Part shown: positions 4,171 through 9,703 of the stretch, piece by piece
How the letters are laid out: each line of letters opens with the position of its first letter
How positions within the stretch are numbered: the stretch's first letter is position 1
Assembly (NCBI RefSeq): GCF_001270965.1
Contig: NZ_LGIA01000027.1
Location: 1-43,643, forward strand
Reading direction: 5' to 3'
Length of the DNA stretch: 43,643 bases
Source of the DNA: Sunxiuqinia dokdonensis
GTDB lineage: Bacteria; Bacteroidota; Bacteroidia; Bacteroidales; Prolixibacteraceae
Position numbers and translations under genes: made by a program
The notes under the pieces: generated by a model
What the model was told of the DNA's origin: nothing
Databases searched by the model: none
The model's input: only the letters and a program-made list of their open reading frames with translations

Positions 4171-4551
4171 ATGAACGCTGATGATCTAAAAAAACGTTTG
4201 AAGGTTTTTGCCTTGCGAATCATTAAGCTGGCCGAGAGCTTGCCAAACGGCTTGACAGGTAAAACCCTTGCCAATCAAATTATCCGTTCAGGCACGTCTC
4301 CGGGCGCAAACTATCGGGCCGCCTGCTTAGGTAAGTCAGACAAAGATTTCCTGAACAAACTAAAAATGGTTGAAGAAGAACTCGATGAAACGCTTTACTG
4401 GCTGGAACTTATTGTTGAATCAGGTTTGGTTAAAGCAGAATTATTAAATGATTTGATGACTGAAAACCAGGAGTTATTTAAAATCATTGTGAGTTCAATT
4501 AATACGATGAAAAAGAAACTCGCTTCGAATAAGAATAATTCCACTAAATAG
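4171..4551 (+). CDS. S23-like four-helix bundle protein
   Basis: A 126-residue all-helical protein of the four-helix-bundle (S23/bAvd-like) family, known from intervening sequences in 23S rRNA genes and from stand-alone copies in Bacteroidota. Family features seen: LKVFALRIIKLAESLPNGLTG near the N-terminus, NQIIRSGTSPGANYRAA in the middle and KMVEEELDETLYWLELI towards the end. The molecular role is unknown. It sits between the KDG kinase and the LarA-like gene but has nothing obvious to do with hexuronates. Short phrase-like AT-rich repeats flank it on both sides in inverted sense (ATTGACCATT at 4129, AATGGTCAAT at 4554), suggesting it entered the operon as a unit. Confidence 0.85.
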   Translation: MNADDLKKRLKVFALRIIKLAESLPNGLTGKTLANQIIRSGTSPGANYRAACLGKSDKDFLNKLKMVEEELDETLYWLELIVESGLVKAELLNDLMTENQELFKIIVSSINTMKKKLASNKNNSTK

Positions 4552-6060: not shown

Positions 6061-7098
6061 ATGAAACTTACAGAAGTTAATTGGGGCATCATTGGTTGTG
6101 GAGATGTAACCGAAGTGAAAAGCGGACCAGCTTTTCAAAAAACGGAACACTCCAGGCTGGTGGCGGTTATGCGTCGCAACAAAGAAAAAGCGGCCGACTA
6201 TGCCAGACGGCACGGCGTGCCAAGGTGTTATCACGTGGCAGACGACCTGATCAACGATCCGGAAATCAACGCCATTTACATTGCCACGCCACCCGACACG
6301 CATGCCAAATACGCTATTCAGGCTATGCGGGCCGGAAAGCCAGCCTATGTGGAAAAACCCATGGCGCTGAACTATGCGGAATGCCGCGAAATGATTAAAG
6401 TGTCGAAAGAAACCGGGATGCCGCTTTTTGTAGCCTACTACCGGCGTACATTGCCAGCCTTCTTAAAAATGAAGGAACTTATTGACTCGGGCATTATTGG
6501 ACAGCCGCTAAGTGTGGCAGTTACGCTCATCAAAAACGCCACTGAGCAAAAGCAAGATCCGGAAACAAATAACTGGCGGGTTGATCCGAAAGTTGCCGGA
6601 GGTGGTCACTTTTTCGATCTGGCCTCCCACCAGTTTGATTTCCTCGACTTCCTTTTTGGCCCGGTTACCGAAGTTCACGGCATTGCGGTCAACCAAGCTG
6701 GTTTGTACGAAGCTGAAGATACTGTAACCGGGACCTTCGCATTCGAAAACGGAGTGACTGGAACAGGCCATTGGTGTTTTGTTGCCGACGAATCGGCGAC
6801 CAAAGACGATCTGGAAATCATTGGGACTAAGGGAAAACTGAATCTTCCGAGTTTTAGACATGAAGACTTGCTTTTAACGACCGATAAAGGAACCATCAGT
6901 TTTAGCTTTCAGAATCCTGAAAACATTTCGCATAACCTTGTCGAACAGGTTGTTCAAACCTTACGCGGAGAAGGAGAATGTGTTAGCACCGGCGAATCAG
7001 CCGCACGAACAAATGCAGTACTCGATGAAATGGTAAAGAACTATTACAAAGGCAGAAGTTCTGAAAACAAAAGGGAAAAAGGCAGCTGTCGATTCTAA
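6061..7098 (+). CDS. Gfo/Idh/MocA-family oxidoreductase
   Basis: NAD(P)-dependent dehydrogenase of about 345 residues. N-terminal Rossmann fold with WGIIGCGDVTE, the YIATPPDTHAKYA strand and the family signature YVEKPMALN (the EKP lysine is catalytic). In the C-terminal alpha/beta domain, GGGHFFDLASHQFDFLDFLFG contains the His expected at the active site. I chose ATG at 6061; the earlier TTG at 6049 lies in repeat DNA. The family oxidises or reduces sugars, inositols and sugar acids; here it closes the first hexuronate cluster, so a uronate- or aldonate-related substrate is plausible but unproven. The last residues (GRSSENKREKGSCRF) look like a non-conserved tail. Confidence 0.85.
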   Translation: MKLTEVNWGIIGCGDVTEVKSGPAFQKTEHSRLVAVMRRNKEKAADYARRHGVPRCYHVADDLINDPEINAIYIATPPDTHAKYAIQAMRAGKPAYVEKPMALNYAECREMIKVSKETGMPLFVAYYRRTLPAFLKMKELIDSGIIGQPLSVAVTLIKNATEQKQDPETNNWRVDPKVAGGGHFFDLASHQFDFLDFLFGPVTEVHGIAVNQAGLYEAEDTVTGTFAFENGVTGTGHWCFVADESATKDDLEIIGTKGKLNLPSFRHEDLLLTTDKGTISFSFQNPENISHNLVEQVVQTLRGEGECVSTGESAARTNAVLDEMVKNYYKGRSSENKREKGSCRF

Positions 7099-7678
7099 TA
7101 AATTTTGTATTCACAAGTCCAGCAAAGACTATTTTGTTTTAACAAGTTAAAATTCAATAAAAAACCACAATAGGCACATAGAACACAGAGAAAAAATGAA
7201 AAATCTATCATTGCGGGGCTACGTGGAGTTTTAAAAAAAATGAATAAATAAGTTCTTTAGAAAGTTGAAAATTGATGAATACCAAAGGAAAATACTCAGA
7301 ACTGAAACAATCATCTATGTGACCTATGTGACTATGTGGTTGCTAAAAAGATTTGTGAAACAAACTCTTTTAACAAGTTAAAATTCAATGAAAACCACAG
7401 TAGGCACATAGAACACATAGGAAAAAGAAGAATGAGAAATAAGTTTCTTTAATAAGTAGAAATGGATGGAAAAACACGGTAGAAAAGTAGAACTGACACG
7501 ACACAAAAATCTATGTGTACTATGTGACTATGTGGTTAAAAAAAAAGATTTGTGAAACAAATTCTTTTAACAAGTTAAAATTCAAGAAAACCACAGTAGA
7601 CACATAGGACACATAAAAGCTGGAGCGTTGTAGTTTGAAAAAAGTTATGAAATAAGTTCATTTTTAAATTAAAATTCA
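7099..7678. repeat. Inverted-arm repeat array, left block (arms L1, R1, L2, R2, L3)
   Basis: No gene in this 580-bp gap. It holds left arms of the form AACCACAGTAGGCACATAGA at 7163-7190, 7393-7420 and 7589-7615, and right arms of the form CTATGTGACTATGTGGTT at 7315-7341 and 7511-7537. Left and right arms are imperfect reverse complements about 120-150 bp apart, so each L-R pair could fold. Each left arm follows the leader AACAAGTTAAAATTCAA, and each right arm is followed by GATTTGTGAAACAAA. The array resumes beyond the GxxExxY gene. Confidence 0.85.
7342..7537 (+). repeat. 196-bp direct repeat, copy 1
   Basis: Bases 7342-7537 match 8294-8489 at a constant offset of 952 with only scattered substitutions and no visible indels. 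The unit runs from GCTAAAAAGATTTGTGAAAC through a left arm to the end of a right arm. The two copies bracket the GxxExxY gene. Confidence 0.85.
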
Positions 7679-8122
7679 ATGAGGAGCCAAGGTAGACACA
7701 TAGAACACAGAGATAGTCAAAATTATATCAATGATCTGACTTATCAAATATTGGGATGTGCCATCGAGGTTCATAAGGAGCTCGGCCCGGGATTACTGGA
7801 AAGTATCTATGAAAAATGTCTTACTCATTTGCTTATTGAAAATGGTTTTAGAGTAGAAAGACAAAAAACGATTCCTCTTAATTTTCGGGGACTTCATCTT
7901 GATTGTGAATTGCGTTTCGATTTGCTGGTAAATGATTTGATTATCGTCGAATTGAAAACCGTCGAGTTCTTTTCTGCTATCCATGAAGCTCAATTATTGA
8001 CCTACTTGAAACTGTTAAAAAAACCAAAAGGACTTTTGATTAATTTCAATTGCACGAATATTTTTCAGGAAGGACAGCGGACGTTTGTGACTGAATATTA
8101 CAGGAAGTTACCGAAGGAATAG
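7679..8122 (+). CDS. GxxExxY-family protein (PD-(D/E)XK-like)
   Basis: A 147-residue protein of the GxxExxY family: ILGCAIEVHKELGPGLLESIYEKCL carries the name-giving motif (split here: GPGLLESIY), and the second half shows the nuclease-like core LRFDLLVNDLIIVELK, a D...ExK arrangement as in PD-(D/E)XK nucleases, followed by HEAQLLTYLKLLKKPKGLLINF. Cellular role unknown. The ATG at 7679 lies inside the fourth copy of the surrounding repeat (leader AAAATTCAATG), so the first 15 or so residues (MRSQGRHIEHRDSQ) are repeat-encoded, and conserved homology begins near NDLTYQILG. No other good start exists downstream before the conserved part. The gene is surrounded on both sides by the inverted-arm repeats. 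Confidence 0.88.
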   Translation: MRSQGRHIEHRDSQNYINDLTYQILGCAIEVHKELGPGLLESIYEKCLTHLLIENGFRVERQKTIPLNFRGLHLDCELRFDLLVNDLIIVELKTVEFFSAIHEAQLLTYLKLLKKPKGLLINFNCTNIFQEGQRTFVTEYYRKLPKE

Positions 8123-8551
8123 ATTCGTTTAACAAGTTAAAATTCAATGAAAAACCACAATAGGCACATAGAACACATAAAAAAATAAAACGATGCCAAT
8201 TCAAAATAGAAAATGAGCCCTTTAAGGAAATGAAACCAGTAAAAAGAAAATAGAAGTGACAGAAAAACAAAAACCTATGAGACCTATGTGGTTGCTAAAA
8301 AGATTTGTGAAACAAACTCTTTTAACAAGTTAAAATTCAATGAAAACCACAGTAGGCACATAGAACACAGAGGAAAAAGATGAATGAGGAATAAGTTCCT
8401 TTAATAAGTAGAAATGGATGGAAAAACACGGTAGAAAAGTAGAACTGACACGACACAAAAATCTATGTGTACTATGTGACTATGTGGTTTCAAAAAAAGA
8501 TTTGTGAAACAAACTCTTTTAACGAGTTAAAATTATGACAAAACAAAAACA
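8123..8551. repeat. Inverted-arm repeat array, right block (arms L5, R3, L6, R4)
   Basis: Continuation of the array after the GxxExxY stop. Left arms at 8153-8179 and 8345-8372; right arms at 8275-8293 (shortened) and 8463-8489. A last partial leader (AACGAGTTAAAATTATGA) runs up to the pdxB start. No other gene is seen in this 429-bp gap. Confidence 0.85.
8294..8489 (+). repeat. 196-bp direct repeat, copy 2
   Basis: Near-identical to 7342-7537 (constant offset of 952). Differences visible by eye include AGAAGAATGAGAAATAAGTT versus AGATGAATGAGGAATAAGTT. Confidence 0.85.
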
Positions 8552-9703
8552 ATGAAGTTTATAATTGACGATAAAATACCATACATCAAGGGAGCGCTCG
8601 AACCTTTTGGTGAAGTAGTCTATTTGCCGGGATCGAAAACCACCCCGGAAGTGGTGAAAGACGCTGATGCCATTGTAACCCGCACCCGAACCATTTGCAA
8701 CGAAGACCTGCTGAAAGATTCTTCTGTGAAGTTTATTGCTACAGCCACCATTGGCTACGACCACATCGACACCGACTACTGCAAACAAGCCGGAATTGAA
8801 TGGACCAACGCCCCCGGCTGCAACAGCAAGTCGGTAGAGCAATATGTGCTTTCAGCGCTGTTTGTTCTGGCTGAAAAAAAAGGATTTGGATTAAAAGGAA
8901 AAACGATCGGCATTGTTGGCGTCGGACAGGTGGGTTCAAAAGTGGCCAAGGTTTGTGAATTGCTGGGCATGAATGTCTTGCTAAATGACCCGCCACGAGA
9001 ACGGGCGGAAGGACCGGAACAGTTTGTCAGTTTTCAGCAAATTATTTCCAAGTCCGATATCATCACCTTTCATGTACCACTAACCATGCATGGCGAAGAT
9101 GCAACCTTCCACATGGCCGACACCCTGTTTTTCAATGCGCTCGAGCGGCAACCAATCGTTCTCAACAGCTGCCGTGGCGAAGTCGTCGACACCTTTGCCG
9201 CAGAAACCGCGATTCAGCGAGGACAAATCTCGGGCTTGGTGCTGGATTGCTGGGAACGCGAACCGAATATTGACCGTAACCTGCTTCAGCTGGTTGATCT
9301 AGCGACACCACACATTGCAGGCTATTCGAAAGATGGTAAAGCCAACGGAACCACGATGAGCGTGCAGGCCATCAGCCGGTTTTTCAAACTGGGCATTGAT
9401 GATTGGCAACCGCAAGGAATTGACCTGCCGAAGCAAACTATTCTGCATTTAAACGGTTTAAACCGCACAGAAGAAGAGATCATCCGTGAAGCCATTTTGT
9501 TCACTTACGACATTCGCCAAGATGATAAACGATTGCGGCAAAGTCCGGATCAATTCGAAAAATTGAGGGGTGATTATCCGGTAAGAAGAGAGTTTCCGGT
9601 TTTCACGATTCAATATGAAAATATTGCAAAAGAAACATTGGAGAAATTAAAGAAGTTAGGATTTAGAATAAAACAGTCAATCATGGTCATTGATAGTCAT
9701 TGA
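8552..9703 (+). CDS. pdxB: Erythronate-4-phosphate dehydrogenase
   Basis: Second step of the DXP-independent pyridoxal phosphate route: oxidises 4-phosphoerythronate, derived from erythrose-4-phosphate. 383 residues, the normal length. A D-2-hydroxyacid dehydrogenase fold: N-terminal substrate domain with ATIGYDHIDTDYC, Rossmann core IGIVGVGQVGSKVAKVCE, the catalytic Arg region LNSCRGEVVD, then ATPHIAGYSKDGK with the catalytic His. The C-terminal extension (about residues 290-380) matches the PdxB dimerisation domain and separates it from SerA-type enzymes. It directly follows the repeat array, with little room for a separate promoter, so the last repeat may supply transcription signals (inference). 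Confidence 0.92.
   Translation: MKFIIDDKIPYIKGALEPFGEVVYLPGSKTTPEVVKDADAIVTRTRTICNEDLLKDSSVKFIATATIGYDHIDTDYCKQAGIEWTNAPGCNSKSVEQYVLSALFVLAEKKGFGLKGKTIGIVGVGQVGSKVAKVCELLGMNVLLNDPPRERAEGPEQFVSFQQIISKSDIITFHVPLTMHGEDATFHMADTLFFNALERQPIVLNSCRGEVVDTFAAETAIQRGQISGLVLDCWEREPNIDRNLLQLVDLATPHIAGYSKDGKANGTTMSVQAISRFFKLGIDDWQPQGIDLPKQTILHLNGLNRTEEEIIREAILFTYDIRQDDKRLRQSPDQFEKLRGDYPVRREFPVFTIQYENIAKETLEKLKKLGFRIKQSIMVIDSH

Follow-up and report, generated by a model that had tools for sequence, protein, structure and literature searches.

Several described systems set a small gene among repeats. In REP/REPIN-RAYT (TnpA-REP) systems, one nuclease-type gene, encoding an HUH Y1 transposase, lies in or beside its own inverted repeats, each of which is by itself a short palindrome, and gene-less pairs, singles and clusters of such repeats are dispersed through intergenic DNA, with several word systems in a genome. 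Insertion sequences and MITEs have terminal inverted arms and internal repeats, occur in gene-bearing and gene-less forms, and are recognised by empty orthologous sites, by target-site duplications and by a known transposase in the element. The intervening sequences (IVS) of 23S rRNA, with their S23/IVP protein, are selfish inserts in which a small gene stands in inverted arms; that of Coxiella is reported to be a selfish element of 428 nt that RNase III excises (PMC4990558).

The locus described here lies in a 43,643-nt stretch of Sunxiuqinia dokdonensis DNA (contig NZ_LGIA01000027.1; "the window") and shares features with each of these systems. An earlier note on the window had described an array of inverted arms built around a PD-(D/E)XK-like GxxExxY gene and had proposed it as a candidate for an undescribed system. 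We give a probability of roughly 0.6 to the reading that the array in the window is a copy of a mobile repeat element, composed of terminal inverted arms and one gene for a small Cas4/RecB-like PD-(D/E)XK nuclease (GxxExxY), which is REP/RAYT-like but uses another enzyme.

The array of arms at the window site

The six left and four right arms reported earlier are present, flanking or enclosing the GxxExxY gene over 7164-8489. The left arms form repeat family D3 (starts 7161, 7391, 7587, 7683, 8151 and 8343) and the right arms repeat family D5 (starts 7305, 7501, 8265 and 8453). The features of the site are as follows.

7050..8551, insertion, approximate extent, flanked by genes for an oxidoreductase (6061-7098) and a 2-hydroxyacid dehydrogenase (8552-9703)
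7164..7190, plus strand, left arm 1, ACCACAATAG GCACATAG AACACAGAG
7315..7341, minus strand, right arm 1, reverse complement AACCACATAG T CACATAG GT CACATAG
7350..7393, spacer from a right arm to the next left arm, containing both outer words
7394..7420, plus strand, left arm 2
7511..7537, minus strand, right arm 2
7590..7616, plus strand, left arm 3
7679..8122, plus strand, GxxExxY gene of the PD-(D/E)XK nuclease superfamily (TIGR04256/PF13366), predicted fold nearest Cas4
7686..7712 (about 7683-7714), plus strand, left arm 4, degenerate, within the first codons of the GxxExxY ORF
8154..8179, plus strand, left arm 5
8275..8293, minus strand, right arm 3, short
8346..8372, plus strand, left arm 6
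8463..8489, minus strand, right arm 4

Each type of arm had been credited with a fixed outer word. This is so for all four right arms, which are followed by GATTTGTGAAACAAA, and for five of the six left arms, which are preceded by AACAAGTTAAAATTCAA; ahead of the left arm at 7683 the word is degenerate. The second half of the spacer at 7350..7393 is the companion of dispersed left arms elsewhere in the genome, and no right arm lies directly 3' of the gene. Two stretches of 251 nt each, one on either side of the gene (7332-7582 and 8284-8534), are 97% identical, which suggests that part of the array is a recent local duplication. Folding of three window units as single-stranded DNA, two of the L..R and one of the R-spacer-L type, gave z-scores of -5.4, -4.5 and -6.3, and 0 of 200 shuffles were equally stable. 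A search of 6900-8700 against Rfam returned three matches, all under their gathering scores (best E 2).

The GxxExxY protein

The sole domain-matched ORF of the insert encodes the stand-alone, 147-aa GxxExxY protein, which scored 137.1 bits against TIGR04256 over residues 19-128 (curated cut-off 35) and 132.4 bits against PF13366 (cut-off 22). The domain search covered this ORF; the other ORFs of at least 60 aa merely overlap it on the opposite strand or lie at the edges. The protein belongs to the PD-(D/E)XK superfamily and is not a transposase. The earlier statement that no transposase is present is correct for the insert but not for the genome, which has four Y1_Tnp matches elsewhere.

The predicted structure has a mean pLDDT of 90.8, with residues 1-7 below 50, near the stretch where the left arm is read as first codons. 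Its top Foldseek match, and best in the PDB, is the Cas4 protein SSO0001 (4ic1; E 5e-4, with a TM-score of just 0.47 by query length), followed by archaeal Holliday-junction resolvases and lambda exonuclease (E about 0.02-0.03), with tRNA-splicing endonucleases among the weaker matches. The protein thus resembles Cas4/RecB-type nucleases in fold; unlike Cas4, it stands alone, and the Cas4 model TIGR00372 gave 15.6 bits, under its cut-off of 65. A sequence-profile search of the PDB found no match at E<=1, and PADLOC returned weak Cas4 matches and one other below E 0.1.

Residues invariant in 24 aligned proteins include the G, G, E and Y of the name motif together with D63, E73, K75, Q87 and Y91, the last being just nearly invariant in a wider set of 39 proteins. 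Over 80 loci, GxGxxExxY was found in 80, D..ExK in 78 and QxxxY in 75, and the matched frame was interrupted by a stop in 8. From knowledge of the PD-(D/E)XK superfamily we take the invariant residues to be catalytic, and the motifs E, D, ExK and QxxxY are presumably common to GxxExxY and Cas4/RecB-type nucleases. A viral or phage origin was considered and rejected, with three relatives in a viral_contigs scan and no matches in 50,697 phage records; among plasmid records, 6 of 72,556 carried relatives.

Arms around GxxExxY genes in general

GxxExxY genes were gathered from the host family and from public genomes of many phyla, many of them MAGs, labelled in their record titles as Bacteroidota, Ignavibacteriota, Chlorobiota, Planctomycetota, Chloroflexi, Proteobacteria, Acidobacteria, Verrucomicrobiota, Cyanobacteria and further groups. 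The sample is non-random: host-family loci are mostly the best match of each of 30 genomes, public relatives are the best 80 of 579, and extra copies come from genomes G007, G009 and G030 only (5/7, 13/17 in 11 stretches and 4/4, respectively). The flank score, the highest inverted complementarity found between the 200-bp flanks on either side of a gene, was computed for 129 of 139 genes, ten near contig ends being omitted; with three duplicates set aside, 126 are distinct.

The median flank score was 16.7 at GxxExxY genes compared with 9.1 at positions drawn at random from these loci. Against 1,032 such positions, 98/129 genes exceeded the 95th percentile and 91/129 the 99th (Mann-Whitney p=3e-54); with 190 further ORFs from these loci as the reference, defined mechanically from ATG to stop at 300-1200 bp, 96/129 and 73/129 did so. 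At least four CRCNNAG units accompanied 79/129 GxxExxY genes and 11/190 other ORFs, with a mean of 5.13 units per GxxExxY locus, and either this or a score above the ORF 99th percentile was found at 107/129 genes compared with 13/190 ORFs. At the 95th percentile 31/129 genes were without inverted flanks, several of them rich in units. In an earlier version of the test, run on 75 of 80 loci (five with short flanks omitted), pairing a left flank with its own right flank rather than with those of other loci gave a median of 18.6 vs 10.0, and 39/75 exceeded the 95th percentile of mispairs. Most sampled GxxExxY genes therefore have arms, in keeping with the earlier proposal.

An arm consists of about three to four units of 7 nt (CACATAG in the window), mostly 8-12 bp apart from start to start. 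The unit, CRCNNAG, is non-palindromic, arms read as runs of it, and the runs are mirrored, with 236 forward and 92 reverse units in the left flanks of the 126 elements and 98 and 221 in the right flanks. In these elements the step from one unit to its neighbour is mostly 8-11 bp. The genome of the window holds eight GxxExxY genes. Arms at others of these genes use CACGGAG/CACAGAG with 3-5-3 spacing, CACAAAG with 2-6-2 and CGCNNAG with 1-1, as well as an unrelated TCTGAAC..GATT arm word, and the gene at L188 10652 has an inverted score under threshold. Arm words are element-specific, and the system is not marked by any single word. A quite different arm word, of the TCTGAACCTTGATT...GATT type, was observed at some GxxExxY genes (L195, L263, L273, L277 and L278).

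Arm class and the nuclease tree

The 126 proteins were placed on a tree built from few columns (118), in which 59 of 123 inner branches are open, and their arms were assigned by our own motif counts to four classes of 75, 20, 12 and 19 members, the last being a left-over class. Arm class changes 22 times on this tree, against a mean of 47.6 for shuffled labels (0/200 shuffles as low). When labels were shuffled within hosts, the mean was still 31.3 and the minimum 26, with 0 of 500 shuffles as low as 22, indicating that host composition is not the explanation. Arm class tracks nuclease lineage, not host; co-inheritance of gene and arms alone would be enough for arm words to track the tree. At least two CACATAG-type units were present in 7 of the 15 nearest rows (6/14 without the window), whose hosts belong to Bacteroidota and Ignavibacteriota, and in 1 of the 111 others.

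Dispersed gene-less arms

Over 60 genomes of the family, the arm pattern matched 962 times compared with 87 for its reversed control. Genomes with a GxxExxY gene (48) averaged 18.9 matches and those without (12) averaged 4.7 (Mann-Whitney p=0.014), the reversed pattern giving 1.5 and 1.2. Arms are therefore not equally frequent with and without the gene, which favours the link drawn earlier, although genomes lacking it still lie above the control (4.7 vs 1.2). The expectation that arm number would track GxxExxY number was borne out at moderate strength (Spearman 0.44, p=4e-4; partial correlation 0.41 given Y1 transposases), and the converse partial correlation, arms with Y1 given GxxExxY, was -0.09. 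With four-helix genes the correlation was 0.33, falling to a partial 0.02 given GxxExxY. Most single left arms in the genome of the window bear a version of the outer word TTTTAACAAGTTAAAATTCA.

Genome G007, with 7 GxxExxY genes, has 199 matches to the first arm pattern, and a related pattern matches 243 times (control 2). Within 41 of its loci, mostly picked for pattern matches, 22 R-loop-L and 13 L-loop-R pairs were found, mostly of 90-100 bp and with commonest unit steps of 9, 12 and 9 bp. By reading, the G007 GxxExxY gene at L261 shares with these mini-elements the kind of word and the 2-5-2 spacing. None of the 35 midpoints lay in an ORF of at least 100 aa, though such ORFs cover 83% of the loci. 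Three congeners of G007 gave no match to its mini-element and one to three matches each to the first arm pattern; with a G007 stretch holding two hairpins as query, no empty site could be resolved, and the mini-element was simply absent from the three congeners. L..R spacings of 1.5 kb in G007 enclosed ordinary genes in the three examined. Genome G043 has 138 arm-pattern matches genome-wide and just two GxxExxY genes; 20 evenly sampled 20-kb stretches of it (400 kb; L220-L239) contained four two-unit chains, about two of them convincing, and its arms perhaps lie in clustered arrays. Degenerate short-repeat runs of TTGATGCTGGATGC and ATGACCAATGACTAAT types were also seen in intergenic DNA (L183 1900-5900; L206; L214).

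The array as an insertion

The window site was compared among seven genomes of the genus, its own included, by searching with the downstream gene. The spacing between the oxidoreductase and dehydrogenase genes is -4, -4, -1, 20, 46 and 103 bp in the six congeners and 1,453 bp here, and in all six the site is without arms and without the gene. The last codons of the upstream oxidoreductase gene are altered relative to the congeners, indicating that the insertion struck the 3' end of that gene. The array is an insertion at this site, with gene and arms forming one inserted unit. Empty orthologous sites and solitary hairpins, both of which it had been advised to look for, do exist. A gene-less version of the unit lies at C217 in the same genome (83% over 285 query bases), with shorter gene-less forms at C45, C197, C82 and C43; in the congeners, the unit gave five short matches in the closest, G060, and none in the other five. 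The C217 site is near-empty in G060, with 32 vs 406 bp between aligned blocks, a comparison with that congener only, just the lipB side being aligned in the other five. At both sites the flanks are too diverged between congeners for a target-site duplication to be read.

These sites bear on the alternative that the arms are older, host-owned repeats into whose loops the nuclease gene inserts by homing. The excess of arm matches over GxxExxY genes in G007 (243 vs 7) and the position of the gene between arms would suit such a history, but the six empty sites lack the arms as well as the gene, making homing into a hairpin less likely, and related nucleases from different phyla come with the CACATAG word. 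We regard homing as rather unlikely.

Pairing or a protein-read word

If base pairing were selected, rare variants shared within a pair and mismatches favouring G.U would be expected, and neither is clear. Folding itself was strong in all seven stretches folded, those of the window and four G007 mini-elements (z-scores -7.1 to -12.4). Among 34 of the 35 G007 arm pairs (one unparsed), unit-site likeness was 0.732 within pairs vs 0.712 shuffled (p=0.065), with p=0.88 for spacers and p=0.78 for spacer length. Mismatches in the sense direction of 93 elements comprised 172 G.T vs 165 A.C, with no G.U asymmetry in a test that had no known-RNA positive control. A cruder pair test had given p=0.027 for 17 G007 pairs, some plainly spurious, and p=0.001 for six pairs of the genome of the window, four of them from one array; pair-specific hairpin covariation was dropped as a conserved property on the result of the finer test. 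The arms look like degenerate copies of a protein-read word, spaced about once per helical turn. The earlier idea that the nuclease acts on hairpins is accordingly reworded: precise pairing is not conserved, and what the protein may recognise are the arm words.

The same data weigh on an RNA-level element like the 23S rRNA IVS, in which arms of the transcript would pair, RNase III would cut, and the protein would be encoded in an insert tolerated at the RNA level. Genes for four-helix IVP proteins (TIGR02436) also stand in inverted arms, often of 7-nt AGNNNNN-type units, at 21 of 27 loci (from 30, with three at contig edges omitted). One of them, a 23S_rRNA_IVP gene (PF05635), lies in the window at 4171-4551 with its own imperfect inverted flanks, and its ORF has the top flank score among the 190 control ORFs. 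The selfish Coxiella IVS is a precedent, and in relatives the two genes on either side of the window insert lie next to each other or overlap. The wobble test, with its lack of a positive control, nevertheless makes the IVS-like model less likely; pair-specific complementarity is barely detectable, and the predicted fold best matches DNA nucleases, with tRNA-splicing endonucleases weaker. Unlike the 23S rRNA IVS, the window insert encodes a PD-(D/E)XK protein, has other arm units, lies between two protein genes and belongs to a type of element without sign of RNA-level selection. This model is unlikely, and DNA recognition is preferred to it because the arms look like a protein-read word rather than pairing partners.

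Regulatory or structural hairpins (terminators, mRNA stabilisers or supercoiling sites), linked to GxxExxY by chance or selection and lacking mobility, would agree with the intergenic position of the mini-elements and the stability of all seven folded stretches, but would leave unexplained the insertions at the window site and C217, the G007 burst and the arm class that follows the nuclease tree; we think this very unlikely.

Y1 transposase loci

Y1_Tnp matches occur in 51/60 genomes of the family, and the four in the genome of the window lie outside the insert. Twenty Y1/RAYT-type loci, picked by us from those listed, serve as positive control of the flank test and, for a RAYT explanation, as negative control. 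Their inverted flanks exceeded the ORF 95th percentile in 13/20, with repeats of another kind, and 0/20 had at least four CRCNNAG units. Loci L363, L368, L373, L379 and others have genes between REP-like hairpins of another kind. That a Y1 (HUH) transposase encoded at another locus moves the arms as REP hairpins, with GxxExxY as a passenger, would suit the abundance of Y1_Tnp and the similar anatomy of single, paired and clustered repeats, but Y1 loci average 0.15 CRCNNAG units against 5.13 and, given GxxExxY, arm number does not follow that of Y1 (partial -0.09), so that we hold this explanation to be highly improbable. The host family has at least three coexisting gene-in-repeats systems.

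Discussion

The reading we prefer is a REP/RAYT-like element with another nuclease fold, whose cutting and movement are putative. The nuclease would recognise the word of its own arms, in duplex or in extruded DNA, and would cut there, and host repair or template switching could copy the unit to new sites. The products would be full elements with the gene between two arms, mini-elements of two arms in either orientation, lone arms, and tandem arrays like the one in the window.

The likeness to REP/REPIN-RAYT proposed in the earlier note extends to a nuclease-type gene between its own inverted repeats, to gene-less pairs, singles and clusters, to several word systems per genome and to dispersed intergenic pairs (in G007, 22 R-L and 13 L-R, with 0/35 in ORFs). 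It does not extend to the enzyme, which is PD-(D/E)XK, no HUH Y1 gene lying in the window insert, nor to the arms, which are runs of three to four short units at 8-12 bp steps, nor to the repeats at the 20 Y1 loci of the host family, which are of other kinds. As in insertion sequences and MITEs, there are terminal inverted arms, internal repeats, gene-bearing and gene-less forms, and empty orthologous sites (the window site vs six congeners, C217 vs one), but the GxxExxY ORF is a PD-(D/E)XK gene and not a known transposase. By anatomy the element is closest to these two pairs of systems; its enzyme is that of neither, and it may represent a separate class. At a little short of even odds, we suggest that GxxExxY elements form an ancient class apart, of self-propagating DNA repeats, in which a stand-alone PD-(D/E)XK nuclease would recognise its unit-built arms and multiply them, nuclease specificity and arm word co-diverging, with several independent word systems per genome, and that the gene-in-arms life style is common to at least one unrelated family, the four-helix IVP genes.

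As proposed earlier, the system appears to be undescribed: PMC literature, searched by title and start of abstract, with preprints and most subscription journals outside the search, contained no description of a gene-in-arms GxxExxY system. Within PMC, GxxExxY appeared in a gene-neighbourhood remark and a gene list, with nothing on an arms system, and six generalised arm words gave nothing relevant.

GxxExxY proteins form a little-studied family, found in many phyla and lacking a known function, and several of the genomes that carry them also have dispersed CRCNNAG-type repeats. Linking every nuclease lineage with an arm word of its own makes the two one testable system, and the nuclease-word pairs offer a natural library for DNA recognition by a minimal Cas4-like fold. 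The elements may form a new class of mobile repeats able to multiply with no known transposase, and the parallel with the four-helix IVP genes suggests a wider principle.
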